From positions 1 through 64,000 of the forward strand of contig NZ_CP110395.1 of the NCBI RefSeq assembly GCF_029910215.1: DNA of 64,000 bases, read 5' to 3'. Under the pieces are notes generated by a model that had not been told where the DNA came from, did not search any database, and saw only the letters and a list, made by a program, of their open reading frames with translations. Below are positions 2,980-33,600 of this stretch, piece by piece. Position 1 is the first letter of the stretch; every line of letters begins with the position of its first letter. This DNA comes from Paraburkholderia sp. D15. Its GTDB lineage: Bacteria; Pseudomonadota; Gammaproteobacteria; Burkholderiales; Burkholderiaceae. The translations under genes and the position numbers were made by a program.

Positions 2980-5499
<2,520 letters not shown>

Positions 5500-5648
5500 G
5501 GGTGTTGTTTCTCAGAATAGATGGCCGAATTCTCACAAAGTTGTCCATGAGAACGTTTGTGAGAACGACGGCTGTCCCCGATGCTGTCTCCTCTGTTGAC
5601 GTGAAAGTCTCTACGAAGTAGCAGCCCAAGGGGGCGAGGGTAACGCGT

Positions 5649-5951
5649 TTATTCAGCCAGTATCTTCTGATGCGGATAGGTCTCGACATCGAACTTAAAA
5701 ATGCGTACATGGCGCTATTCAACGCCATCTTGCGCGAGGCCGCAGTGTCGGAACGCAAAGAACGCAGCCACGTATGGGGAATATGACCAGTCGAGAAGTG
5801 GCGTCGGATAGCCGTGGTGCTGCAACAAATGCAGAAATCCTCCGCGGCTATCGTTATCGAGCATGTTCATTGGCTGCGGCAAGGAGCCGCTCAAACGGTT
5901 GTACAACAGCCGCATGTCTTCAGCGTCATACCGGAATCCGCCCGGCTTTCA
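5649..5951 (-). pseudogene. Broken FRG-domain gene fragment
   Basis: On the minus strand, codons from 5951 down to 5649 read as part of an FRG domain: QHHGYPTPLLDWSYSPYVAA matches the family hallmark (Q-H-x-G-x-P-T-x-L-L-D-W-x-x-S-P) and is followed by AFFAF. The frame is stopped by TAG at 5717-5715, then continues in the same frame with the FRG-like segment RIFKFDVETYPHQ until TAA at 5651-5649. A TGA also lies just upstream of 5951. The piece is therefore an internal fragment with at least one nonsense mutation. FRG-domain genes are often found in mobile or defence regions. The surrounding bases 5500-5648 and 5952-6081 hold nothing else I recognise. Confidence 0.75.
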
Positions 5952-6081
5952 CGGTGGTAGAGGGAACGTAGGGGCCACTCGGAATTCACGTATGCCCTAT
6001 AGGCGCAGGTGCGGTAAGGGCTACGCGCTAGATGACACGGGACTTTCGCTCGATTAGACTTAGGCAAAGACTGGGGGATAT

Positions 6082-6552
6082 ATGGGTAGTGGAGAACTGG
6101 GAACCGCGAATTCCTCGCAAAATGGATTGGCGCTTACTGCAGAAATGGTGGCGCGCGCGTGGCGCGATCCTGATTACCTTGCCAACTTGCCCCCTCAATT
6201 GCAGGCTCAAGTCCCCCCATCGCCAGTTGGCCCGTTGGACTTGGGGTTAGTGGGTCGGGCAGGGCAAATTCAGATTCACGCTGGAACAATCGCGGCGACC
6301 TGCAGTACCATCGCAGCACGCTGCAGTACGATTGCGGCGAGCTGCAGCACTATCTCCGCAGGTTGCAGCACCATCTCCGCAGGATGCAGCACGATCTCGG
6401 CGGGATGTAGCTCCATTTCCGCCACGTGCAGTACCGTCGCTGCAACATGCAGCACCGTAGCAGCCAAGTGCAGCACGATTGCGGCAACCTGTAGCACCAT
6501 CGCCGCCAGTTGCAGCACCATCGCTGCAAACTGTCGTCCGAGAAAACGCTAA
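6082..6552 (+). CDS. Heptad-repeat class II lanthipeptide precursor
   Basis: This 156-residue peptide is the likely substrate of the LanM encoded just downstream. Residues 1-67 form a leader: LTAEMVARAWRDPDYLANL (about 18-36) resembles the helical nitrile-hydratase-type (NHLP) leaders, and GRAG or IHAG (58-68) could be a Gly/Ala-type cleavage site. From Thr69 the core has Cys at 74, 81, 88, 95, 102, 109, 116, 123, 130, 137, 144 and 151, exactly seven apart. Each unit reads Cys-Ser-Thr/Ser-Ile/Val-Ala/Ser-Ala-x, so every Cys has a Thr or Ser five residues before it. The tail is RPRKR. The start is ATG with GGGGGA just upstream. That this is a precursor is inferred from composition and neighbour; the ring pattern is predicted, not shown. 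Confidence 0.85.
   Translation: MGSGELGTANSSQNGLALTAEMVARAWRDPDYLANLPPQLQAQVPPSPVGPLDLGLVGRAGQIQIHAGTIAATCSTIAARCSTIAASCSTISAGCSTISAGCSTISAGCSSISATCSTVAATCSTVAAKCSTIAATCSTIAASCSTIAANCRPRKR
6286..6534 (+). repeat. 21-bp coding tandem repeat (lanthipeptide core)
   Basis: About twelve 21-bp units, each encoding one heptad, run through the 3' half of the precursor gene. The Cys codon is TGC or TGT and is followed by AGC/AGT/TCC for Ser. Units vary at third positions and at the last codon of each heptad (Thr, Arg, Ser, Gly, Lys, Asn), while three consecutive units encoding the ISAG variant are nearly identical. This pattern suggests expansion by slippage or unequal exchange, followed by purifying selection on Cys and Thr/Ser. 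Confidence 0.9.
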
Positions 6553-6565
6553 GCATCGTAATCGG

Positions 6566-9500
6566 TTGTCGCAAGTGTTGTTGAACCGAGCCCTTGGAGT
6601 TCTGGAACGCGCTGGCTGTTCCGATGAATTCAATGATGTAATTGCCGAAGCGAGGCTCCAAAGGTGGCTTGAGAGCCCTGCGTTTTCTAACCGGCGTGAT
6701 TTTGAACAATTCCTTCGGGATTGTAGTGTTAGCGAGGAGACCTTCACCCGCTGCTTGGGGATCGTGCCGGACAGTGAAGGTGTCCAGTCTGTACCCTCAT
6801 CTTGGTTCGCCAACGAGGCGATACCGTCTGGCAAGGCGTTTGCCTCCGAGAATGGGATTGGTTCGTACCTTAGCTTGGTCGAACCATTGCTGCGCGAATC
6901 GACGAGCCAAGTCCAGGCGACAGTTGATGCGCAGAATGACAGATACGGCTCGGAGTTATTTTCGGGGCGTGTAGTCGAGTCTCTGGCAGATGCTCTCTAC
7001 GAGCAAATACTACTGGTGATTGTGAAGCCGCTCACCCTTGAGCTTCGTATCGCCAGCATTTCTGGAACGCTCCGCGGTGACGTCGGAGAGGATCGCTTTA
7101 AGGATTTCGCTAACGACCTTTGTCGTCCCGAGACGCGACAGCGCCTGTTCTCGCAATATCCGGTGATGCTGGCACACTGCCTTCGAGTCTGCGATCAATG
7201 GCGTAGATCAGTTACGGAGTTTCTGGAAAGAACAGCAAAGGACATTCTTCTGTTGCAAAAGTCGTTCTGCGTTGGTCAGCAGGTGCTTTCAGCCCAAGTA
7301 TCAACTGGTGATGCGCACAACGAAGGGCGACGGGTCGTAATCGTAGACTTCACAGATGGGAAGCGACTTGTTTACAAGCCCCGATCCTTGAAGGTCGAGT
7401 CGCATTTTCAAGATCTGCTTCAATGGCTGAACGACAAGGGGCTTGATCCAGCGCTGAGAACGATTCGAGTACTGGACCGAGATTCTTACGGTTGGAGCGA
7501 GTTCGTTGAAGCTTCCGACTGCGTCTCGATGGAAGATATCCAGCTCTTCTATAGACGAGTAGGTGTATTGCTAGCGCTTCTTTACGCTGTCGGCGCTACG
7601 GATGCGCACTTCGAGAATCTAATCGCCGAAGGTGCCCACCCGGTTCTGGTTGACCTAGAGACACTCTTCCATCCGAGCTTGGCCATCGATAACGATGGCT
7701 CCGGGAGCACAACTCCTAGTGCAGCAAATCGATCTGTCCTATCTGTGGGTCTACTACCAACGCCAGTTCGTGTTGGAGATCAGATTGTCGACATGAGTGG
7801 CCTCGGTGCAAGACCTAATGAAAAAACGCAGCTGCAGACAATGGGGTTTGATGCGGTCGGAACGGATGAAATGCACATCACCAGGGTGCAGTTTGTGCCA
7901 GAAACGACATCGCATCTTCCGAGATTACAAGGTCGGCAGCACAGGGCAACGGAGCACATCCAATCTGTTCTCGAAGGGTTTCGTACAGGCTACAGGTTGC
8001 TCGTCTCTTGTGCAGGAGAACTTTTGGCGGCTGAGGGACCAATAGCCGTCTTTGCAGATTGCGAGGTGCGCGTCCTGCTCCGGCCTACCGCAACCTACGC
8101 GTCTTTATTGCAAGAGAGCTATCATCCACACGCATTGTCGGACGGCACTGAGTGCGATAGGGTCCTCGCTCAAATCTGGAGCAATGCGACGAGCAACCCG
8201 ATATGGGCGGTGGCTGCGCCGCATGAATTCGCGCAGCTTCGTCGCGGGGACGTTCCATACTTCTCCTGCCATACTGCAAGCACAACGGTCTCATCCGGGG
8301 ACGGAACTCAGTTGAATTCTATTCTGTCATCAACAGGGTTCGAAAGCGTTCAGTTACGTATCGTGTCTATGGATGAGGCAGATCTATGTCGGCAAGAATG
8401 GATCATCTGCGCGTCTTTCGCGTCGCTTGGTGAAGGCGGAACTGATGGAAGCGATGCGTTAAAGGGCTGTGAACCTTGGCGAGGGTGCGGTAGTGAGAAT
8501 GCTCAAATTGCCGCAGTAAGGATGTTGGACACCCTCGCTTTCAAGCATGGCGACAGTGCAACATGGCTGACATTTGCGCCAGTTGCGTCTAGGAGTTCGG
8601 CGTCATCGCTTGACCATATCGTCACCGAGGTGGGCATCGATCTCTACGATGGACTGGCAGGCATTGCCTTCTTCCTCCTGGCCTCTGCCAAGTTCGCTGG
8701 AGACTCGCGCGGTCTCGATTTGGGATGGGCAGCATTGAATGAGCTCGAACGGCGTTTAGCAATGACGGCGGCAGACCAGCCATACGGAGCGTTCTCTGGA
8801 ATTTCAGGTGTGTTATATGTATACGCTCACGTAGCAACGTGGTTCCCAGAAGTACACGAACGGCTCAAGGCAAGGACTGGGCTATTGGTGCCAATCGTCG
8901 CCGAAAAATTGCGCGATGACGAAGCGTGCGACCTGATAAGTGGACGAGCAGGAACAATTCTTTGCCTCCTTGCAGTTCACGATGCTGGGCTCAACGAAAG
9001 CGCGCTAGATCTTGCCACTCAGTGTGGTAGCGAAATTGTCCGCATCTTGAACAAGGGCGCTGCACATGAGGTGTCGCGCCTAAAGCTTCCGAACTACCGG
9101 GGCATCTCTCATGGACTATCCGGCGTTGCCATGGCAATGGTGGCGCTCGGCAATGCTACGCACGAGTCGATCTTCGTCACTACGGCCCTAGCCTTTTTTA
9201 GCCTGGAAGGTAACATGACCGAAGGCGGAGTTTGGACGGACCCGCATGACTTACATCATGTTGGGCAGGCCACGTGGTGCCACGGGGCCCCTGGTATCGC
9301 ACTAGCGCGATTGACCGCGTATTCACAGTTGTTGGGTGAGCCGCTGATCGAGCGGGAAGCTCGGAGGGTGCTTGGTGAGTGCCTAAAATTACCGCTGATT
9401 GACAACGAGTCGCTCTGCCACGGAAATCTCGGCAACCTCGACGTACTCGCACTTGCCGTAGATGTTTTCCCTTGCGAGCAGCTTTGGGGAGATGAAATCG

Positions 9501-9742
9501 AAGAGAAACGGACAAATGTCCAAGCTTTGATCACGCGGGAAGGATTGCGGTGTGCAAGACCAGGATACATCCCTGTTCCAAGCCTAATGACTGGAGTCGC
9601 TGGTATCGGCTATGGAGCGCTCAGAATGTCTTTCTTATCCGGGATTCCTTGTGTCTTGACGCTCGCGCCGCCATTTTCGACATTTGACGACTGTGGCAAG
9701 GAAGAGCAGCGGGTGCTCAATCGCCGTAAACCAGCGACGTGA
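6566..9742 (+). CDS. lanM: Class II lanthipeptide synthetase LanM
   Basis: LanM enzymes phosphorylate and eliminate Ser/Thr in a precursor core, then cyclise Cys onto the dehydro residues. The N-terminal dehydratase (DUF4135) shows VYKPRSLKVE near residue 268, DAHFENL at 346 and DLETLFHP at 363. The C-terminal LanC-like cyclase has GISHG at 846, WCHGAPG with Cys905/His906 and LCHGNLG with Cys951/His952, which are the zinc ligands and catalytic His. With ~1060 residues the enzyme looks complete. The start is uncertain because there is no in-frame ATG: TTG at 6566 is chosen, but TTG 6479 (inside the precursor gene) and GTG 6575 are possible. GC and codon use are lower than in gyrB, which suggests transfer. 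No LanT or protease gene follows. Confidence 0.93.
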   Translation: MSQVLLNRALGVLERAGCSDEFNDVIAEARLQRWLESPAFSNRRDFEQFLRDCSVSEETFTRCLGIVPDSEGVQSVPSSWFANEAIPSGKAFASENGIGSYLSLVEPLLRESTSQVQATVDAQNDRYGSELFSGRVVESLADALYEQILLVIVKPLTLELRIASISGTLRGDVGEDRFKDFANDLCRPETRQRLFSQYPVMLAHCLRVCDQWRRSVTEFLERTAKDILLLQKSFCVGQQVLSAQVSTGDAHNEGRRVVIVDFTDGKRLVYKPRSLKVESHFQDLLQWLNDKGLDPALRTIRVLDRDSYGWSEFVEASDCVSMEDIQLFYRRVGVLLALLYAVGATDAHFENLIAEGAHPVLVDLETLFHPSLAIDNDGSGSTTPSAANRSVLSVGLLPTPVRVGDQIVDMSGLGARPNEKTQLQTMGFDAVGTDEMHITRVQFVPETTSHLPRLQGRQHRATEHIQSVLEGFRTGYRLLVSCAGELLAAEGPIAVFADCEVRVLLRPTATYASLLQESYHPHALSDGTECDRVLAQIWSNATSNPIWAVAAPHEFAQLRRGDVPYFSCHTASTTVSSGDGTQLNSILSSTGFESVQLRIVSMDEADLCRQEWIICASFASLGEGGTDGSDALKGCEPWRGCGSENAQIAAVRMLDTLAFKHGDSATWLTFAPVASRSSASSLDHIVTEVGIDLYDGLAGIAFFLLASAKFAGDSRGLDLGWAALNELERRLAMTAADQPYGAFSGISGVLYVYAHVATWFPEVHERLKARTGLLVPIVAEKLRDDEACDLISGRAGTILCLLAVHDAGLNESALDLATQCGSEIVRILNKGAAHEVSRLKLPNYRGISHGLSGVAMAMVALGNATHESIFVTTALAFFSLEGNMTEGGVWTDPHDLHHVGQATWCHGAPGIALARLTAYSQLLGEPLIEREARRVLGECLKLPLIDNESLCHGNLGNLDVLALAVDVFPCEQLWGDEIEEKRTNVQALITREGLRCARPGYIPVPSLMTGVAGIGYGALRMSFLSGIPCVLTLAPPFSTFDDCGKEEQRVLNRRKPAT

Positions 9743-10196: not shown

Positions 10197-11966
10197 TCAC
10201 TCCTTGAGCCAAGCCTTCTTGATCGCCTCGAAGTTGAGCTGCTTCCATTCTTCCTTCCAGAGCTGGTAGTACGGGATGTCGGTCGACGAGGGCGGCGGGT
10301 CGCAACGCTGGACCTTGACTAACGACGGCATCACCACAGACTCACCGATCAGCAGTGCCTCTCCGGCGCTCAAGGTCGGTAGCTTGTCGCAAAGATTGCC
10401 AAGCGTGTCAGGCAGCAGGCGTGCGACGTAGCTCTGGTCACTCGGGTTGGTCAGCCGCATCGCAAGGAAGTTGCTGCACTGGGAGAAGATCGTCTCGGAG
10501 ATCTCCGACGGGCGCTGACTCGACAGGAGCAGCGTCACACCGTACTTGCGACCCTCCTTGGCTATGCGTTCGATCGAGAACTTGGACGCACGAAAGCGCG
10601 CCAGGTCGCTGTTGGGTACGTACTTGTGGGCCTCCTCGTACACGAGCAGGAGCGGCGTGTCGGTGTTGATCTTCTCCTTTGCCGCAGTCCGCATCACCTT
10701 GTAGTGGTACCCGTACTCGAACAAAATTCGCGAGATCAGCGACACGGTGATGCTGAGGACCTCGAAGGGGACGCCGCTCAAGTCGACGATCGTGACGTTC
10801 GACTGTTCGTCTCCGTAGCCGATCAGGCTCTTCAGGGTCCCCACCAGCGTGGCTGTGTCGGCGGACGGACCGAAGAGAAACTGCAGGCGGTCCTGCTCCA
10901 CCTTGGCCTCGAAGCGCGCGAAGAACTTGTCCAGCGACTTGTCTGCGTAGCTGCCCGGGGTGATGCTCTGGCCTTTGGTCGGATGGAAATCGAGTCGCTT
11001 GGCAAAGTACAGATCGAGCCGCTCGTTCGCGGAGAGCTGCAGGCCGTGGCTGTTGTCGGTCTTGCCTTCGGGCAGTAGCGTGTAGCTGCCATCCACCACC
11101 ATGTACCGCGCCTCGTTCTTCGAGTTCACGGTCTCGCTCTTGATGTTGTACAGCGCGTTCAGCACCTCATGGATGTTGAACTTCAGCGGGCTGTCGTAAA
11201 AGACGTTCTTCGCGCTGGTGTTGTGGCGCCTCTTATTCTCCGTCACCAGCTGACGGAACACGGCCGACTGGTCGTAGTTGTCGCGCTCGCCCGTATCCAG
11301 CAGCACCTCCTCAAGTTCCTCGCTATTGAGCAGCCAATAGGGCAAGGTCAACGTACTGGCGTCGAGGAAGTTCGCATCAGGGAAAGCCGTTCGGTACTCG
11401 GAATGGATGTCGAAGATGACGACGTGCGAGTTATTCAGCGAGTATTGGCCGTTCTTCGCGCTCACCGCCGTCTGGATGATCTTGGCTATCGTGTGGGATT
11501 TACCGGCACCGGTGGACCCCACTACGGCCAGGTGTTTGTTGAAAAACCGATCGCCGTCCACCGGCACGGTGATCTTGTCGTTGGACACCAGAGCGCTGAA
11601 AGCGAACTTCTTGGCCGGGTCGACCGAATCCTCGAAGATCTTCTTGATGTCGTCTTCAGTCGCCGGCGTCACGCCCGTTGGCGGAATGGTCAGCGTGTCG
11701 CCGCCGCGGATGAACTTGCCGTCGGCGATGATTCCCAGTGGGAGCGCCTCGATGATGTGGCGGCGCTCTGCCTTGTCGTTCACTTCAATGCAGAAGTTCT
11801 CGATGATAGCGATAAGCGCGCAGTCCTCGCTGTCGGTGACGCGCAAGTACGAGCCCACCTTGAGGCTCTTGTCGTTGGCGAACGCCGAGATGTTGCCAAC
11901 CGAGATCTTCACCTTGTCTGGGAAGACCGCGATCACTTCGGCCTTGATGTCTTGAGAATCGCTCAT
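10197..11966 (-). CDS. HerA-type ATP-binding protein (DUF87 family)
   Basis: The 589-residue product resembles HerA/FtsK-superfamily motor ATPases that form hexameric rings with nuclease or effector partners, many of them antiphage. An N-terminal barrel-like HAS domain (about 1-100) precedes Walker A GSTGAGKS at 150-157; Walker B LLLVYEEAHK lies at about 438-447 and an arginine-finger-like region, SSQRPSEIS, follows. The ATG overlaps the stop of the upstream gene by four bases (ATGA), so the two were co-translated. The partner is truncated by an insertion sequence, and this gene has probably lost its native promoter and complex. The exact defence type cannot be named from this protein alone. 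Confidence 0.85.
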   Translation of the reverse strand: MSDSQDIKAEVIAVFPDKVKISVGNISAFANDKSLKVGSYLRVTDSEDCALIAIIENFCIEVNDKAERRHIIEALPLGIIADGKFIRGGDTLTIPPTGVTPATEDDIKKIFEDSVDPAKKFAFSALVSNDKITVPVDGDRFFNKHLAVVGSTGAGKSHTIAKIIQTAVSAKNGQYSLNNSHVVIFDIHSEYRTAFPDANFLDASTLTLPYWLLNSEELEEVLLDTGERDNYDQSAVFRQLVTENKRRHNTSAKNVFYDSPLKFNIHEVLNALYNIKSETVNSKNEARYMVVDGSYTLLPEGKTDNSHGLQLSANERLDLYFAKRLDFHPTKGQSITPGSYADKSLDKFFARFEAKVEQDRLQFLFGPSADTATLVGTLKSLIGYGDEQSNVTIVDLSGVPFEVLSITVSLISRILFEYGYHYKVMRTAAKEKINTDTPLLLVYEEAHKYVPNSDLARFRASKFSIERIAKEGRKYGVTLLLSSQRPSEISETIFSQCSNFLAMRLTNPSDQSYVARLLPDTLGNLCDKLPTLSAGEALLIGESVVMPSLVKVQRCDPPPSSTDIPYYQLWKEEWKQLNFEAIKKAWLKE

Positions 11967-12989
11967 GCCTGCATGATCTCCTGAAGTAGATAGGCACTGT
12001 CACTCTTGATCGAATGAAGCCCCCTGGCCTTTGGCACGAGGGTACTGTCGAGTGGCGTGGCCTTGTAGAAGTCGTAGACCTCGACGACCAATCCGGTGCA
12101 AGCAGCGATGGTCGGCGCCAGCTGCTGTTCACCGGGGACGAACTTGATCGTCCAAAGGTTGTCCTTGGTGGGGGCCGCCGTCAGCATGGCGGGCGAGAAC
12201 TCGGCGCCTTGGAATGGATAGCCATCATTGAAGACCACGCCCTGCGTCCATAGGCTGGCCTTGAGCTCGATCAACTGCTCGGTCGTCACGCCCCGCAGCA
12301 GCACGTAGGGGCAGAACCGGTCGGTCGCAGGCGTTCGCTGGAGCTCCTTGTGCGAGAAGAACTGGCCGATTCGAACGAGCATGCGGGTGGCCTTGTCCAC
12401 GTCGTAATCATCGGCCATGTCCATCACGAAGAACCTGGCGGCCTTGGGTAACTTTGTCTTGCCGAAGTAGAAGTACCTGCGACGGACCATTCGCGCGAAA
12501 TACTCGCGTCCCAGGTGCTCCCGCAGCCAAGCGCTGAAGACCACCTCCTTGCGGTTGATGGCCCTCAAGAACTGATCCTTGGTGATCTTTCGCTTGGCCT
12601 CGTCCGCCTCGATGGCCAGCCCCTGAACGACGTTTATCGCTACCGGGTAGAAGAAGCTCAGCGCGTCGCCGGTCGAGCAATCGGGGATCTCCGACTCTAG
12701 GAGCTTGAGCACGTTAGCTTGCTGATTGTCGTAGGACAGAGCGTTCACATCAATGTCCAGCAACGCACGAAAGGCGGCAAGCTGGACATCGGTGATTGTC
12801 AGTTCCTCGTGCACCTTGTGGACCTGCTTGTCCTTCGTGTAGGTTAGGAAGTGCTCTTTCAGGAACTCGTCCGTCAGCGGGAGCGTGAGCTTGTGCTGAC
12901 CGCCGCGGTAGTGGCCGTACAGCCGGTACCTGAACACCTGGTCGGTAGGGCAGCCCGCGGCATGGAAATGCCGCAGCATGTGGATTACC
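11963..12989 (-). pseudogene. HerA partner gene, 5' end lost to IS21
   Basis: About 341 codons of a native reading frame end in four-base overlap with the HerA-type gene. The frame enters the IS element at 12989/12990, so anything upstream in this frame is transposon sequence and not protein-coding. The surviving part begins VIHMLRHFHAAGCPTDQ, then has an RYRLYGHYRGG segment and a mainly helical C-terminal part. In HerA two-gene systems the upstream partner is usually an effector such as a SIR2 or DUF4297/Cap4-like nuclease; the HFHAAGC...YRLYGHY stretch could be the end of a Cap4-like nuclease domain, but I am not certain. The catalytic N-terminus would be missing, so the system is probably dead. 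Confidence 0.7.
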
Positions 12990-13019
12990 TGTTGATACGC
13001 GCATAAAACTGACCCACTT
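12990..13019 (+). repeat. IS21 left terminal inverted repeat
   Basis: Begins TGTTGAT and carries AAAACTGACCCACTT at its inner side. It matches the reverse complement of 15458-15487 at 24 of 30 positions. The TG at the tip is typical of IS21-family ends. Confidence 0.85.
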
Positions 13020-13091
13020 CCGCTAGAAATTTGCATCGAAAATTGACCCACATGTTCAACTGCCTGCTTGGACGCCAAGCAGGAGAACGGA

Positions 13092-14618
13092 GTGATAACC
13101 GTGAGCATGTTGGCCAAAATTCGGCGGATGCATTTCCGCGATGGCGTCCCGCTCCGGGACATTGCAAGACAGACAGGGCTTTCGAGAAACACTATTCGAC
13201 GATGGTTGCGCGAACCGTCGGAAAGCGAGCCGAAATTCGCTAAGCGCATCAGCAACAGCGTCGTCGACCCGTGGTCAGAGCAACTGCGACTATGGCTGGT
13301 CGCCGATACGAGGCGTACAAGACGGGAACGGCGCTCGGCAACGCAGATGTATGAGGATTTACGGGCGGCTGGCTACGACGGGAGCTACGACCGCGTGTCT
13401 GCCTTTGTGCGCAACTGGAAGAAGGAGCGCGATTCCGGAGCGCAGCGTGGCGCCTTTGTGCCGCTCGCCTTTGAGTATGGTGAAGCATTCCAGTTCGACT
13501 GGAGTTGCGAGTATGTCTTCATCGGTGGACTCAGACGACGCGTAGAGGTCGCACACATGAAGCTCGCCGCGAGTCGTGCCTTCTGGCTTGTGGCCTATCC
13601 GACCCAAAGCCATGAGATGCTGTTCGACGCCCACGCACGAGCATTCGTCGCGTTAGGCGGCATTCCCCGGCGCGGCATCTACGACAATATGAAGACTGCC
13701 GTCGACAAGGTTGGCCCGGGTAAGGAGCGAGCTATCAATGCGCGCTTCCACGCGATGTGCGGCCACTACCTGTTCGAGCCTGAGTTCTGCAACCGGGCCG
13801 CTGGCTGGGAGAAAGGCATCGTTGAAAAGAATGTCCAGGACCGCCGCCGGCAGATTTGGCACGATGCAATCGGTATCCGGTGGGAATCGCTTGAGGTCCT
13901 GAACATATGGCTGGCAGAACGCTGCCAACAGGCCTGGAAGCAACTGAGACATCCGCAATGGCCTGAGCTCAGTGTGGAAGACGCCCTCGCGGATGAACGC
14001 CCTCGGCTGATGCAGGTTCCAAAGCCGTTTGATGGCTACATTGAGAAACCCGTGCGCGTCTCGCCGACGAGTCTGGTACATCTCGACCGGAACCGTTATA
14101 GCGTGCCGACGGAGTTTGCACATCATATTGTTAGCCTGCGTAGCTATCCGACCTACATCAGCCTGGTGGCTGACGGCATCGAAATTGCCCGCCACCCCCG
14201 CAGCTTCGACCGCTACCAAACCTTTTATGACTGGCGGCACTACATCGCTTTGGTGGAACGAAAGCCCGGCTCTTTGAGAAACGGCGCGCCGTTCCTGACG
14301 ATGCCAGAACCGATGCTTCGCCTGCAGAGACACCTACTAAGGCAGACCGGTGGCGACCGCGTAATGGTCCAGGTCCTGGCGGCCACCCCCGTTCATGGCC
14401 TGGAGGCCGTGCTGGTTGCCGTCGAGCTTGCGCTCGAGTCCGGACGTCCCAGCGGAGACCATGTCCTGAACATCCTTGCCCGACTGAAAAGCCAGTCGGC
14501 TCAATCGGGCGACGGGGTGAGGACAGCAATAACGCTCAAGGTCGAACCGCTTGCAGACGTCTACCGTTATGAACGACTGCGCGTAATGCGCGACGAGGAG
14601 GATGGTCGTGTCGAATGA
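13092..14618 (+). CDS. istA: IS21 transposase IstA
   Basis: IstA is the DDE transposase of IS21 elements. The ~508-residue protein has an N-terminal helix-turn-helix ([17 protein letters not shown]), an rve-type integrase core with the FDWS motif (Asp near residue 138) and [10 protein letters not shown] region, and a C-terminal Mu-transposase-like domain with [13 protein letters not shown] at 13092 is chosen as start because AGGAG lies eight bases upstream; the frame stays open to TTG 13068, and ATG 13107 is also possible. It overlaps istB by 17 bases. Confidence 0.93.
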
Positions 14619-15417
14619 AACTGCCGCACTTCTCAAGGCGCTAAAGCTTCACGGAATGGCGCAGGCGTGGCCCGAACTGGTAGCACAGGCACGACACAGT
14701 GACTTTGAACCGGAGAAATTCATGCAGATGCTGCTGAAAGCAGAAACGGCTGAACGGCAGGTTCGGTCAATCAACTACCAGATGGCCGCCGCACGCTTCC
14801 CCGCGCACCGTGACCTTGCCGGCTTCGACTTCGAGCAGGCTAGCGTCGATGAAACTCTTGTGCGAGAGCTCCACACTGTCCGCTTCTGCGAGTCCGCGCA
14901 GAACGTAGTGTTCATCGGTGGACCTGGCACAGGAAAGACGCACCTGGCGACGTCCATCGGTATCGACGCGATACAGAATCATGCAAAGCGGGTCCGGTTC
15001 TTCACTACGGTTGAACTCGTCAACCAGCTTGAAGCCGAGAAGGCAGCCGGCAAACCAGGGCAACTGGCAAATCGTCTCATGTATGTCGACGCCATTGTTC
15101 TGGACGAGTTGGGCTATCTCCCGTTCACTCAAACGGGCGGTGCACTGCTGTTCCATCTGCTCTCGAAACTTTACGAGCGTACGAGCGTTCTCGTTACAAC
15201 CAATCTGAGCTTCACTGAATGGTCGAACGTCTTCGGCGACGCGAAGATGACAACTGCGCTGCTTGACCGGCTCACCCACCACTGCCATATAGTGGAAACA
15301 GGCAACGATTCCTGGCGCTTCAAAAACAGTACGGCGGGGCAGCCCGCTTCGCGGGCTGCAACCCGTAAAAGCTCACCCAAACGACAAAAAGAGGAGGAAA
15401 TCGACGCACCAGATTGA
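14602..15417 (+). CDS. istB: IS21 helper ATPase IstB
   Basis: IstB is the AAA+ ATPase that assembles on target DNA and stimulates IstA. The 271-residue product has Walker [10 protein letters not shown] near residue 105, Walker [12 protein letters not shown], and sensor I TTNLSF. The C-terminal tail is basic ([13 protein letters not shown]). An ATG preceded by GAGGAGG gives a strong start inside the end of istA, consistent with translational coupling. Confidence 0.95.
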
Positions 15418-15457
15418 TGTTTATCAGCATCAGGGGTGGGTCAATTTTAGATGCAAA

Positions 15458-15487
15458 AAGTGGGTCAGTTTCCAGTGCAAATCAACA
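15458..15487 (-). repeat. IS21 right terminal inverted repeat
   Basis: Read on the minus strand this end begins TGTTGATTTGCACTG and continues into GAAACTGACCCACTT. It is the partner of the left end at 12990-13019 and marks the outer boundary of the element. Confidence 0.85.
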
Positions 15488-15559
15488 GCCATGCTCTTTC
15501 CCAAGATCGTAGGCGTAGACGCGGCCGTTGTTTTCCTTGATTGAATCCAATAAATCCAT
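15488..15559 (-). pseudogene. 5' fragment of a gene cut by IS21
   Basis: On the minus strand an ATG at 15559, preceded by GGTGA, opens a frame whose first 24 codons read MDLLDSIKENNGRVYAYDLG followed by KEHG. The frame runs straight into the IS21 right end, where the next codons are Cys and stop. The segment has good coding character and a ribosome site, so it looks like the true start of a gene whose remainder has been removed. It lies in the same direction as the HerA pair but cannot be shown to be the missing start of that partner. Bases 15560-15987 between it and the next gene are relatively AT-rich and hold nothing else I can name. Confidence 0.5.
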
Positions 15560-15987: not shown

Positions 15988-17481
15988 ATGAAACCCCTAG
16001 CGATGGTTGTCCTGGCTGCATGCCTCACCTTGACGGCGTGCGGCGGTGACGACGTATCTGACGGCAGTGGCACCTCGTCGTCCTCGGGAAACGGCGGTCC
16101 CGGCTCGTCGGGCAATCCGTCGTCCCCCGGAAACGGCGGCACCGCCCAGGCGCAGGCCGGTTGGTCCACCGCCGCGGCGATGGACGGTAAAGCAGCCGAG
16201 TTCGAACCCAGCACAACGATCGACGCCAAGGGCAATTCGCTCGTCACGTGGATGTCGAACGGCCCCAGCGGCACCACCGGCAACGAGATGTGGGGCTCGC
16301 GCTACGTCGCCGGCTCGGGCTGGTCCACGCCGACACGCCTCGACACCAGCGATGGTAGCGACGCCATGACGGGCACCGGCACCGGCGCGCCGCAACTCGT
16401 CGGCAATGCCAGCGGCCAGGCGGTCGCGTTCTGGACTCAATGGATGCCCGCTGCCAGCAAGTATGCGTTGTGGGCGCGCCCCTATAGCCCGAGCGCCGGC
16501 TGGGGAACGGCAACCGAGATCGCGCCGAACATCACCAGCTTGACGTACACCGCGGGCATCGACGCTCAGGGCAACGCGCTCGTCGCGTGGCCGCAATCGA
16601 TCAGCCTGCTCGACTCGCGCATCGCATGGACACGCTACACGCCGGATGGCACGTGGTCGACGACCGCGCTGATCCAGATGCCGGCGCAGACCGGCCCCGG
16701 CGCCGTCACCGGCGACACGACCAACGTGCGCCCGATGATTTCAGTGCTGCCGTCCGGCAGCGCGGTCCTCGCGTGGGGGCAGACGAACAGCACGCAGTCG
16801 GCGATCTGGACCGCCACGTTCGATCAGACCGACGGCTGGACCAACATCAATCAGGCCGTCTCGAACACGAGTCTGTTCACCTCGATCGACACGCCGACAG
16901 CTGGCATGGACGCGAAGGGGAACATCACGCTGGTGTGGGGGCAACTCGATGCAACCGGCGGCAAGCTCTACACCACCACGATGTCGCAGCGCTACGTCGC
17001 GGGCACCGGCTGGCAGGCGGCGCAGGCTGTGGCGCCGGAGATCACCGAAGCGGGTGGTTTCATCGCCACGCCGATACTCAGCGTGGGTGCGAACGGCGTG
17101 GCCGCCGTCATGTGGGCGCAAGGCGGCGTCGCGCTGCAGGCGAGCGTTTCCGACGCCAACGGCAACTGGGGACCGCTGCATCAATTGACCGCGAGCATCG
17201 ACCCGACGACGGTGCAGTATCCGCCGATCGTCGTCGATCCGGCCGGCAACGTGACGGCGGCGTGGCAGGACGCGGGGACGCCGGGCTCGTCGGATGTCAT
17301 CGCGGCCAGCTACCGGAACGGCGCGTGGACCACATCGACCCTGTTCGGCCAGGACCCGCAGGACGCGTCGTGGCCCGCACTGGCCGTCAACGCATCCGGC
17401 GCGATGTCGCTGGTGTGGCAGTTGTACATCAACAGTGTCGGCCCCGAATTGCAGGCCAGCTTCTATACGCCGGGCACGTGA
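15988..17481 (+). CDS. Secreted lipoprotein with repeated beta-type modules
   Basis: The 497-residue product has a lipoprotein signal peptide ending in LTLTAC (Cys18), a Gly/Ser-rich linker to about residue 55, and then repeated units of roughly 50-60 residues. Each unit resembles a propeller blade: a D/N-x-x-G-N-x-x-V-x-W strand pair (AKGNSLVTW, AQGNALVAW, AKGNITLVW, PAGNVTAAW, ASGAMSLVW) followed by a GW-containing segment. A beta-propeller at the cell surface or in the periplasm is the simplest reading. The function is unknown. ATG 15988 is supported by AAGGA upstream. It faces a second small lipoprotein in the same direction. Confidence 0.85.
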   Translation: MKPLAMVVLAACLTLTACGGDDVSDGSGTSSSSGNGGPGSSGNPSSPGNGGTAQAQAGWSTAAAMDGKAAEFEPSTTIDAKGNSLVTWMSNGPSGTTGNEMWGSRYVAGSGWSTPTRLDTSDGSDAMTGTGTGAPQLVGNASGQAVAFWTQWMPAASKYALWARPYSPSAGWGTATEIAPNITSLTYTAGIDAQGNALVAWPQSISLLDSRIAWTRYTPDGTWSTTALIQMPAQTGPGAVTGDTTNVRPMISVLPSGSAVLAWGQTNSTQSAIWTATFDQTDGWTNINQAVSNTSLFTSIDTPTAGMDAKGNITLVWGQLDATGGKLYTTTMSQRYVAGTGWQAAQAVAPEITEAGGFIATPILSVGANGVAAVMWAQGGVALQASVSDANGNWGPLHQLTASIDPTTVQYPPIVVDPAGNVTAAWQDAGTPGSSDVIAASYRNGAWTTSTLFGQDPQDASWPALAVNASGAMSLVWQLYINSVGPELQASFYTPGT

Positions 17482-30737: not shown

Positions 30738-31718
30738 TCATATGTTCTCCAGCAGACGGGCAATGACTTCAGGCGAAGGCAACTGATCCTTCAGCTTTCT
30801 CGGCAGTGTCTTGGTAATTTCGTAGGTTGCTACGCCAATCGGCTTGCGCGCGTCGCGCAATGCGTACTCGACGATCGTGCGCGTTTTCTCTTTGCACAGG
30901 ATGATACCGATAGACGGATTTTCGTCCTCTTGTCGTACCTTTGCATCGAGCGCCGCAAGATAAAACTGCATCTTGCCGACAAACTCCGGCTCGAATTCTC
31001 CGATCTTCAACTCGATGGCGATTAACGCGCGCAAGCGTCTGTGGAATAGCAGCAGGTCGATGAAGTATTCCTTGCCTTCCACGTCCAACCGGTACTGGCT
31101 GCCCATAAAAGCAAACATGCCGCCCATGGCGCGCAAAAAATCCTCGATACGAACAATCAATGCTCTTTCCAGCTCGCGCTCGCTGTGTTGATCGCCCAAC
31201 TCGAGGAAGTCGAAGGCATATTCGTCCTTCACCGCTAGTTTGGCCTGCGCGCGCAGGCTTGGAGTTAGCGTCTGGTCAAAATTGGTTTGGCTCAGCAGTG
31301 ATTTCTCGTAGCTCTGATTGTCTATCTGGTGGACCAGCACGTTTTTTGACCATCCGAGCTTGCGTGTCATGCGCAGGTAGAACTCCCGCTCCTGAGCGAC
31401 TTTGCAGCGTTGCAGGATGATGAGATTGTGTGACCACCCAACTTGTGCAACCAGTGGTTGCACTTTTGCGTCGCTGCGGTAGAGCAGATAGAACTCACGC
31501 ATGTAGAACAAATTGCGGCGGGAAAAACCGCCCACGCCAGGAAAGGCGTCCCGCAAGTCGCCGGCCAGCTGCTCTGCGATGGCGGCGCCGTGGGTGGCGT
31601 CTTTCTGCCGCTCCACGATCAGCTTCCCAATGTCCCAATACAGGCCGACCAGCTCCTTGTTAACTGCGCGCAGCGCCGCGTACTGCGCGGACTGGATGCG
31701 CGCCTTAACTTCGGCCAA
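30738..31718 (-). CDS. YhcG-type PDDEXK nuclease (DUF1016), possibly 5'-interrupted
   Basis: The 326-codon frame matches the YhcG family: an N-terminal DUF1016 helical domain (NKELVGLYWDIGKLI, FSRRNLFYMREFYLLY) and a C-terminal PD-(D/E)xK nuclease with YFIDLLLFH and IAIELKIGEFEPE (about 225-250). The frame begins at a TTG without an upstream ATG. In the same frame upstream the codons read KEYPALLAEVK, which the family has, then LRKTGTVPATT, then a TAA at 31784-31782, then KKTSRKL back to a GTG at 31853. A nonsense mutation near the true 5' end is therefore likely; the protein may be made by re-initiation or not at all. Confidence 0.8.
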   Translation of the reverse strand: MAEVKARIQSAQYAALRAVNKELVGLYWDIGKLIVERQKDATHGAAIAEQLAGDLRDAFPGVGGFSRRNLFYMREFYLLYRSDAKVQPLVAQVGWSHNLIILQRCKVAQEREFYLRMTRKLGWSKNVLVHQIDNQSYEKSLLSQTNFDQTLTPSLRAQAKLAVKDEYAFDFLELGDQHSERELERALIVRIEDFLRAMGGMFAFMGSQYRLDVEGKEYFIDLLLFHRRLRALIAIELKIGEFEPEFVGKMQFYLAALDAKVRQEDENPSIGIILCKEKTRTIVEYALRDARKPIGVATYEITKTLPRKLKDQLPSPEVIARLLENI

Positions 31719-32033: not shown

Positions 32034-33392
32034 TCAATCCCCAGTTGCGTCGTCCGCGCAATCCCACACAATCCGCTCGAACAACGCCTTCAACTTCTCA
32101 CCCCGCGCCGCGTTCAGCATCGCCACATGCGCGACCCGGCCCGCGAGATGCGCACGAAAGTCGGAATGATCGTCGCGATTCTGCGAGCGCGGTCCGTGCC
32201 TGACGCAATTGGTGAGCGTCGCCTTCAACGCATCGAAAGCGGGCCGCGCGATATTCGGGTGCGTATTGACGACCACGCCCGCCAGATGTTGACGCGCGCC
32301 GCGACGCATCACACGCGTCTTTCTCAGATTGAGCGTGAACCCTTCCTCGATCGCGATCGCGGCGACGCGGATCGATAGCCGTTCGGCCATGCGGGCGAGA
32401 TCGTCGCCGCCGGAGAAGGCGAGGTCGTCGGCATAACGCGTGTAAGTCGCGCCGATCGAGCGCGCGAGTCCGGTCAAGCGTAAGTCGAGTTGATAAGCGC
32501 AAAGATTCGCCAAAGCCGGCGAGCTCGGCGCGCCTTGCGGCAAATGACGGTTCCGGTAACGCTGTCGTTCGAGCCAGTCGATGCGGTCACGGACATCGGC
32601 TTCAAGCAGACGGCCGCTGGGGATGCGATTGGTACACAGCGCAGTGATGGCGCGGCTAATGGCCAATGAGTAGCCCAAAGCGCGAATCGTCGAGTAAACG
32701 CGTCCCGCATGCACCGACGCAAAAAAATCGCTCAGATCGAAGCGAATCACCACCGCTTTGTCCGCATGCGGCGCAGCGAAACTCACGATGTTCCTGCCCC
32801 GCCGAAACCCATGCGCCGCCTCATGCAACGGAATGCGATCGAGCAAACCATGCAGCACTTTCCGCTGCACGGCCCGCAAACGCGTCTTGGGAATTTCGAT
32901 GAGTCTGCAACGACCGTCGCGCTTCTGAATCGCCTTATAGACATAGTGATGCAGCGGCGAGCTCGCGGCGTGCGCCGGTACCCGCCAGCGATCGGCCAGC
33001 CAGTCGAGTTCGTCGCACCCGGCATCGAGCCACGCGGCGAGGTCCGCAAGCGTGGCCAGTTGCGGCAAAGCCACGCCCTGCAACCACGGCGGCGCGGGCC
33101 GCTGAACCGGCGGACGCATCATCACACGCACCACGCGCGGACGGGCATCGCTACGCCACGCCGACACGAACCCCGGCGTTTCCGCGATCAATGTCGACAA
33201 CTCGCGACGATCGACGCTGTCCCATCGCGCGCCAAAACGCGTTGCGGCTAGATGCGCCAATCCGCTCATCCACGCGGCGGGTTCGCCCAACGCGAGCGTC
33301 ATCCGCGCGACGAGGGCATCGGGCTCGGCGGTGCCGGACAGCATCGCATCGGCAATCGCGTAGGTGACGTACTGCAACGAAGATGACGACAT
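32034..33392 (-). CDS. Retron-type reverse transcriptase with N-terminal extension
   Basis: The 452-residue protein has an N-terminal extension of about 140 residues followed by an RT domain: HHYVYKAIQKRDGRCRLIEI, AAHGFRRGRNI, FAAPHADKAVVIRFDLSDFF (NAxxH-like motif and first catalytic Asp), LPQGAPSSPALANL, and the catalytic YADD at residues 320-323. In place of the retron VTG motif it has HLAGVVVN. The layout resembles the long retron RTs such as those of myxobacteria. ATG 33392 is chosen; the frame is open to 33596 without RT similarity, and that stretch is hairpin-rich. No separate effector gene lies next to it on the same strand. Confidence 0.85.
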   Translation of the reverse strand: MSSSSLQYVTYAIADAMLSGTAEPDALVARMTLALGEPAAWMSGLAHLAATRFGARWDSVDRRELSTLIAETPGFVSAWRSDARPRVVRVMMRPPVQRPAPPWLQGVALPQLATLADLAAWLDAGCDELDWLADRWRVPAHAASSPLHHYVYKAIQKRDGRCRLIEIPKTRLRAVQRKVLHGLLDRIPLHEAAHGFRRGRNIVSFAAPHADKAVVIRFDLSDFFASVHAGRVYSTIRALGYSLAISRAITALCTNRIPSGRLLEADVRDRIDWLERQRYRNRHLPQGAPSSPALANLCAYQLDLRLTGLARSIGATYTRYADDLAFSGGDDLARMAERLSIRVAAIAIEEGFTLNLRKTRVMRRGARQHLAGVVVNTHPNIARPAFDALKATLTNCVRHGPRSQNRDDHSDFRAHLAGRVAHVAMLNAARGEKLKALFERIVWDCADDATGD

Positions 33393-33429
33393 AGGGAAGA
33401 GAGGGCGGGCCGGCCAGTCAACGCGTCGA

Positions 33430-33600
33430 GTGCTGCGTGAGCCGTGTTGCGCACCGCGCAAGTGACGCTCATGCGACGAACTGCGGAGGTGATGTCGATC
33501 CACGGGGTAACCCCGTAGTGCCCGAAACGGATGCTGCTCGTCTCCAGGCGTGCTTGACCAGCCGTCCCGCGAGGCGACGATAAGCGAGCGGGACATTGCG
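33430..33600 (-). ncRNA. Candidate structured RNA upstream of the RT (msr-msd-like)
   Basis: Directly upstream of the RT start, three dyads occur within 150 bp: a 6-bp stem with 3-base loop at 33447-33461, a perfect ACGGGGT/ACCCCGT hairpin at 33502-33516, and GTCCCGC/GCGGGAC with a 17-base loop at 33564-33594. Retrons encode their msr-msd RNA in this position, on the same strand as the RT. The exact ends, the branching G and the a1/a2 repeats could not be assigned by eye, so this is a candidate only. Confidence 0.4.

Follow-up and report, generated by a model that had tools for sequence, protein, structure and literature searches.

The first 64,000 nucleotides of contig NZ_CP110395.1 of Paraburkholderia sp. 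D15, hereafter the window, encode a peptide with twelve copies of one cysteine heptad and, next to it, a class II lanthipeptide synthetase (LanM). The best explanation as a whole, which we consider probably correct, is that LanM makes from this precursor a twelve-ring polycyclic rod with a cationic tail. The elements of the pair are the following:

6073..6078, + strand: GGGGGA purine-rich stretch, possibly the ribosome-binding site for the precursor (consensus only)
6082-6552, + strand: precursor open reading frame, 156 aa, ATG start (ORF listing)
6082..6285, + strand: precursor leader, residues 1-68, with its AG end right before the first ring Thr (TIGR03898, family rows, AlphaFold)
6286..6534, + strand: core array, residues 69-151, twelve T/S-[IV]-[AS]-A-x-C units joined by Ser (residue count)
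6535..6552, + strand: basic tail RPRKR (residues 152-156) and stop codon (residue count)
6566..9742, + strand: LanM, class II lanthipeptide synthetase, start at TTG 6566 or TTG 6581 (TIGR03897, PF13575, PF05147; LicM2 and CylM by sequence)

A class II synthetase beside a twelve-unit precursor

The preliminary description of this locus had claimed a strict Cys heptad, a Thr or Ser five residues before each Cys, a basic RPRKR tail and an adjacent LanM with all zinc ligands, and each of these features was recovered. LanM begins within 30 nt downstream of the precursor. It matched TIGR03897 with 730.7 bits against a cut-off of 304, as well as PF13575 and PF05147, and it aligned with LicM2 and CylM. 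The zinc ligands C905, C951 and H952 and the kinase-like residues K271, D346, H348, N351 and D363 (counted from TTG 6566) are invariant across all 11 aligned LanMs; their roles are presumed from the alignment with CylM and LicM2 and from the work on CylM. With its 1053 aa, the database copy of the enzyme (P0026) agrees with a start at 6581. Judged by its sequence, LanM is complete, and with the precursor it forms a class II lanthipeptide pair. A search of the genome for LANC-type domains returned this LanM as the sole match.

The leader of the precursor (ARAWRD ... SPVG) is without Cys. The twelve cysteines lie at residues 74, 81, 88 and so on to 151, with a spacing of seven in 11 of 11 intervals. 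Five residues before each Cys stands Thr (11 of 12) or Ser (1 of 12), and Ser follows 11 of the 12 cysteines, the last being followed by Arg in the tail CRPRKR. Because position -6 of the first Cys is occupied by Gly, we frame the unit as T-[IV]-[AS]-A-x-C-S. The core is devoid of Asp and Glu by composition. Its computed average mass, when cut before T69, is 8354.5, and 8138.4 after 12 dehydrations. In the window, searches for Rfam families and tRNA genes gave 0 and 0 matches, and promoter and terminator scans scored at chance level. When compared to the NCBIfam and Pfam models, the precursor also had matches below cut-off to unrelated models, namely the S-layer protein SlaB (E 0.036), PF02349 (E 0.00038) and PF02979 (E 0.057). 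We rejected them as composition noise, although the PF02979 match may reflect the leader.

The repeat belongs to a precursor family

Database protein searches returned 20 proteins with the single sequence and 24 with a profile (7992 candidates scored), giving 25 different proteins outside the window, P0001-P0025. Two were set aside: P0020, which like the locus L002 has 21-bp repeats without the leader and was rejected as a relative, and P0025, a short precursor of which only the leader is related. The remaining 23 further precursors share leader and heptad core, which argues that the repeat is more than chance. The preliminary description had proposed a search for this heptad, and a family bearing it does exist; the precursor is thus not unique but has 23 further relatives in the database. 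Four of them had been labelled automatically as "mersacidin/lichenicidin family type 2 lantibiotic", so the precursor is better called uncharacterised than unseen. The source contigs of the relatives are mostly 733 to 6,201 bases long, with P0011 on 24.6 kb and P0024 on 51 kb; three have no contig.

Exactly twelve Cys at i+7 were found in 13 of the 23, which with the window precursor makes 14. Runs of ten Cys occur in P0012 and P0013, and P0024 has nine. The other seven have the Cys of 2 to 8 units, some of them probably cut at contig ends or frame-shifted; P0014, with four units and a tail, looks complete. The unit counts given below refer to the 14 proteins with a twelve-Cys run (P0012-P0019, P0023 and P0024 left out). 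In these, position -5 is the sole position occupied by Ser or Thr in every unit (168/168), Ser stands at +1 in 152 of 154 cases, and at least three Arg or Lys follow the last Cys in 14/14. In five of the 14 the leader contains one or two Cys. Over 12 aligned sequences, mean identity is 0.40 for the leaders and 0.82 for the core. That twelve units are kept in order despite this leader identity argues for a defined object. P0024 stands apart with Asp-bearing, acidic units (CSTVDST) and no basic tail, which suggests that the repeat is also used with a different surface chemistry.

Selection on the repeat and opposite patterns of variation

A pair of units in the window precursor has on average 1.02 base differences at first codon positions, 0.00 at second and 3.47 at third positions (55 pairs, x codon left out). 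The fraction of third positions that differ, 0.579, compares with 0.613 (sd 0.043) for random synonymous codons in 1000 draws. Silent sites are thus saturated while the protein is held, which indicates that selection at the protein level maintains the repeat and that the units are old.

The x residue, which directly precedes each Cys, is specific to the unit within a protein. In register, identity at x between twelve-Cys proteins is 0.647, and at shifts of 1 to 5 units it is at most 0.340; within-protein permutation (2000 draws) gave 0.246, with sd 0.012 and a maximum of 0.291, a comparison that overstates the independent evidence because the family sequences are related by descent. The order of x in the family reads S/T-S-S-S-N/H-T-K-T-K-T-S-N/D, with a conserved Lys in units 7 and 9 of most twelve-Cys members; P0011, P0022 and the window precursor, which reads T-R-S-G-G-G-T-T-K-T-S-N, are more divergent. 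Positions -4 and -2 behave in the opposite way, being uniform inside a protein and different between proteins. Entropies within a protein and across proteins are 0.51 and 1.18 at -4, 0.33 and 0.91 at -2, and 2.03 and 0.86 at x. We infer from this that equivalent residues of neighbouring units touch, and that the x residues face a partner or the solvent.

A concerted change in nearly all units, with the order of x kept, was observed in three members. In P0010 the residue at -4 is Ala in all but one of the 12 units, and Thr occupies -2 in 12/12 units of P0021 and 11/12 units of P0022. P0002, by leader the closest twelve-unit relative of P0021 and P0022 (0.71 and 0.66), has Ala or Ser at -2.

Leader and processing

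By its sequence the leader of the window precursor resembles the mersacidin/lichenicidin type. It scored 21.1 bits with TIGR03898 over residues 25-50 (E 0.00023), slightly below the cut-off of 23.5, and 18 of 20 family rows matched this model at E <= 0.01, the best at 2.2e-10. AlphaFold placed helices around residues 20-43 of the leader with block pLDDT 82-94. The unmodified core was modelled as helix at residues 67-105 and 110-150, with block pLDDT mostly 53-72 and pTM 0.31. Confidence is confined to the leader, and a rod fold is therefore not predicted with confidence.

Before the first ring, Gly is present in 14/14 and AG in 13/14 of the twelve-Cys proteins. We read this AG as a putative C39 cleavage site. 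A transporter or leader protease was not recognised beside the pair among the open reading frames of positions 1-34000 (minimum 40 and 130 aa, part of them scanned against families). The genome has only two C39 peptidase domains, at 3.36 and 3.42 Mb, both more than 3 Mb away. The cleavage, export, fold and role of the product that are predicted below are points that we infer only weakly.

Ring chemistry and the proposed product

Which residue would partner each Cys can be narrowed down by comparing the family members. In many units, Ser or Thr is also present at -1 and -6. The first unit has Gly at -6 in 14/14 twelve-Cys proteins, so the repeated Ser cannot partner the first Cys. After the last Cys, neither Ser nor Thr is present in the window precursor and nine others, but 4/14 members have a Ser there, which makes an argument on ring direction from the ends of the array weaker. 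The spacing Thr(i)-Cys(i+5) is itself that of a known class II motif, TxTxEC (PMC7268733). We consider ring formation in the register Thr/Ser(i)-Cys(i+5) likely.

In the proposed course of events, LanM would bind the mersacidin-like leader, phosphorylate the Thr (or Ser) heading each unit and then eliminate the phosphate. Each dehydrated residue would close onto the Cys five positions downstream. The result would be a tandem series of twelve (methyl)lanthionine rings of six residues each, linked by single Ser (or dehydroalanine) residues, with the basic tail at the end. If the leader is cleaved off behind the conserved (A)G, a chain of 88 residues and about 8.1 kDa would remain. We picture the product as a rigid polycyclic rod whose length is fixed. 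One of its faces, formed by the -4 and -2 residues, would be uniform, and the other, formed by x, would be addressed unit by unit. This rod would most likely be extracytoplasmic, with the basic tail binding or coating membrane or envelope. That relatives share the plan of twelve units hints at a rod built with precision and not at an ordinary small antibiotic.

A structural or envelope-binding role of the product is a tentative proposal, with less than an even chance of being right. We are a little more doubtful still about the more specific idea of a dedicated structural lanthipeptide, in which a twelve-turn thioether rod or solenoid would carry stacked ladders of -4 and -2 residues, a recognition strip of x residues and the tail as an anchor. 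The opposite patterns of variation, unit-specific at x and protein-wide at -4 and -2, make this structural idea testable.

Alternative readings

An ordinary lantibiotic, that is, a secreted multi-ring antimicrobial with a known ring in many copies, which permeabilises membranes or binds a cell-wall precursor and uses its basic tail for membrane contact, would account for the mersacidin/lichenicidin-like leader, the ring spacing as in TxTxEC, the cationic tail in all 14 twelve-Cys members and the automatic name on four relatives. However, the lipid II motif TxTxEC of the mersacidin/lacticin-481 type was looked for and rejected, as its Glu at -1 and its Thr at -3 are each found in 0/168 units. 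Neither an immunity nor a transport gene was recognised beside the pair among the partly annotated open reading frames of positions 1-34000, and lantibiotics do not usually keep twelve ordered units so strictly. We regard this reading as possible but somewhat unlikely; the extracytoplasmic rod is favoured, with the lantibiotic close behind. The modified peptide might also be kept in the cell and bind nucleic acid or another polyanion via its Arg tail and the x lysines. The Arg-rich tail and the Lys of units 7 and 9 would suit this, as would the absence of a GG cleavage site and of a recognised transporter nearby. Yet the AG and Gly that precede the first ring look like a processing site, and the distant member P0024 is without a basic tail, and we find such a function improbable.

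Two further readings would dispense with the rings altogether. The heptad could be that of an unmodified coiled coil, with Cys at a and Ile/Val at d, LanM acting on something else. The 3-4 spacing of Cys and Ile/Val fits this, and so do the helices in the AlphaFold core model, although that model is of low confidence. The invariant Cys and the Thr/Ser at -5 would be needless for a coiled coil, V, I and A are all accepted at -4, and the one LANC-type domain of the genome lies directly downstream; this reading appears even less probable than that of the polyanion binder. Finally, the array could be a DNA tandem repeat, open in several frames by chance and without peptide function. Frames on the opposite strand are indeed open too, and elsewhere L002 and P0020 have 21-bp repeats that translate similarly. 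But the units differ by synonymous changes that have reached saturation, other proteins combine leader, core and tail in the same way, and 0 of the 16 weak-match loci listed in other genomes has the leader motif or a run of at least three heptads. The codon pattern contradicts a DNA satellite artefact, and of all the readings this one, which we rejected, has the smallest chance of being correct.

Relation to known peptides

The twelve-ring rod that we prefer can be compared with several types of known peptides. Polytheonamide-type proteusins are long peptides with periodic polar residues aligned along a helix, and they carry D-amino acids and N-methylation but no lanthionine. The window precursor resembles them as a long periodic peptide, and the lack of lanthionine sets them apart from the predicted product. 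Mersacidin/lichenicidin-type lanthipeptides have short cores with few, unlike rings. The window precursor instead repeats one unit in line twelve times and ends in an Arg-rich tail; Glu is absent from -1 and Thr from -3, and in the vicinity a transporter was not recognised. What it has in common with mersacidin and lichenicidin (TIGR03898, class II) is a similar type of leader, the LanM and the Thr(i)-Cys(i+5) spacing of the TxTxEC ring (PMC7268733).

Repeated thioether rings in one ribosomal peptide are also known from PapA/freyrasin-type ranthipeptides, which have six CX3D/E thioether motifs (PMC9413430). There the enzyme is a radical SAM enzyme acting on CX3D/E (PMC9413430), whereas the window has a LanM, and the CX3D/E motif is absent from its core, which is without Asp or Glu. 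Corallotide and plesiocin-like graspetides are long RiPPs built of repeats like the window precursor (PMC13097080). Corallotide has five repeated modified motifs and is reported there to have collagen-like biophysical properties; we regard it as the nearest precedent for a structural role. These graspetides have ester or amide links made by ATP-grasp enzymes and fewer, non-identical units, in contrast to the thioethers predicted here (PMC13097080). Since repeat-built RiPPs of other chemistry exist, as PapA and corallotide show, repetition as such is not new.

Searches of open-access full texts turned up no twelve-unit in-line lanthipeptide array, and a text search for the heptad itself gave two unrelated papers; subscription papers mostly lie outside these searches, so absence is unproven. 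The initial statement that there was no described example therefore holds for open-access full texts, but family members had already been named automatically. We know of no lanthipeptide in which modification yields a periodic scaffold rather than a few small rings. If the rings form, the range of lanthipeptides would widen beyond small ring systems to include periodic scaffolds, and a single gene with a single enzyme would suffice for a stapled peptide polymer whose length is defined and whose side chains can be programmed. It would then be a question of enzymology how one LanM acts on twelve near-identical sites in register.

Distribution and genomic setting

A convincing match to the precursor was found only in its own genome, in samples of 196 genomes of relatives, 399 of the order and 369 of the class. 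Matches at E <= 0.001 occurred in 15 of the 196 relative genomes, including its own, and weak ones at E <= 1e-8 in two genomes of the order sample and one of the class sample. The weak matches in other genomes look like low-complexity repeats. Precursor searches against plasmids and phages gave no match, and of 91 pattern stretches in viral contigs 0 were confirmed. The scan of genome contigs relied on six exact 8-residue strings, so it misses members that are worded otherwise.

For LanM, the protein search (7994 candidates scored, those sharing most words) listed at E <= 1e-150 five relatives with 50-51% identity, two with 40% and 65 others with 31-36%. Two of 144 congener genomes have a match, the genome itself and one other, at 26% identity. 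At E <= 1e-100 a match was present in one of 398 sampled genomes of the phylum, the genome itself. Plasmids gave 194 records, with a best identity of about 32%. This LanM clade and a heptad precursor were seen together in the window's genome only, and the contigs with LanM matches did not coincide in length with those bearing precursor matches.

Between 6 and 9.5 kb the GC content is 52-56%, whereas past 16 kb it is 65-68%. Of 12 congeners compared to the window, 11 align up to 5499-5516 and one up to 5674, and then they diverge; in two of the 12, DNA resembling an IS21 end lies about 1 kb past gyrB. The low GC and the divergence of the congeners past gyrB make the pair look foreign, like cargo that entered at an insertion site behind gyrB together with a HerA/DUF4297 pair, an FRG-domain remnant and an IS21 element. 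Besides being rare, the pair thus lies in a foreign-looking region next to gyrB that bears defence genes. Other features noticed in the window, these included, are:

5715-5915, - strand: short open reading frame matching part of the PF08867 (FRG domain) and PADLOC PDC-S15 models, apparent remnant
10197-13255, - strand: HerA ATPase (PADLOC HerA, 901 bits) and DUF4297 nuclease-type partner, defence pair
12989-15488: IS21-type element, istA and istB, inverted repeats 12989-13051 and 15436-15488
15988-17481, + strand: protein without Pfam match
30738-31718, - strand: YhcG/DUF1016 PDDEXK nuclease-type protein (PADLOC PDC-S02, 479 bits), near the reverse transcriptase
32034-33596, - strand: reverse transcriptase gene, matched best in PADLOC by RT_other (487 bits) and a retron outgroup

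The DUF4297 partner of HerA matches only positions 70-381 of its 404-position model, and its start lies inside the IS21 element. The protein at 15988-17481, for which 20 other genomes searched gave no paralog, has one with 58% identity at 2.79 Mb on the same contig.
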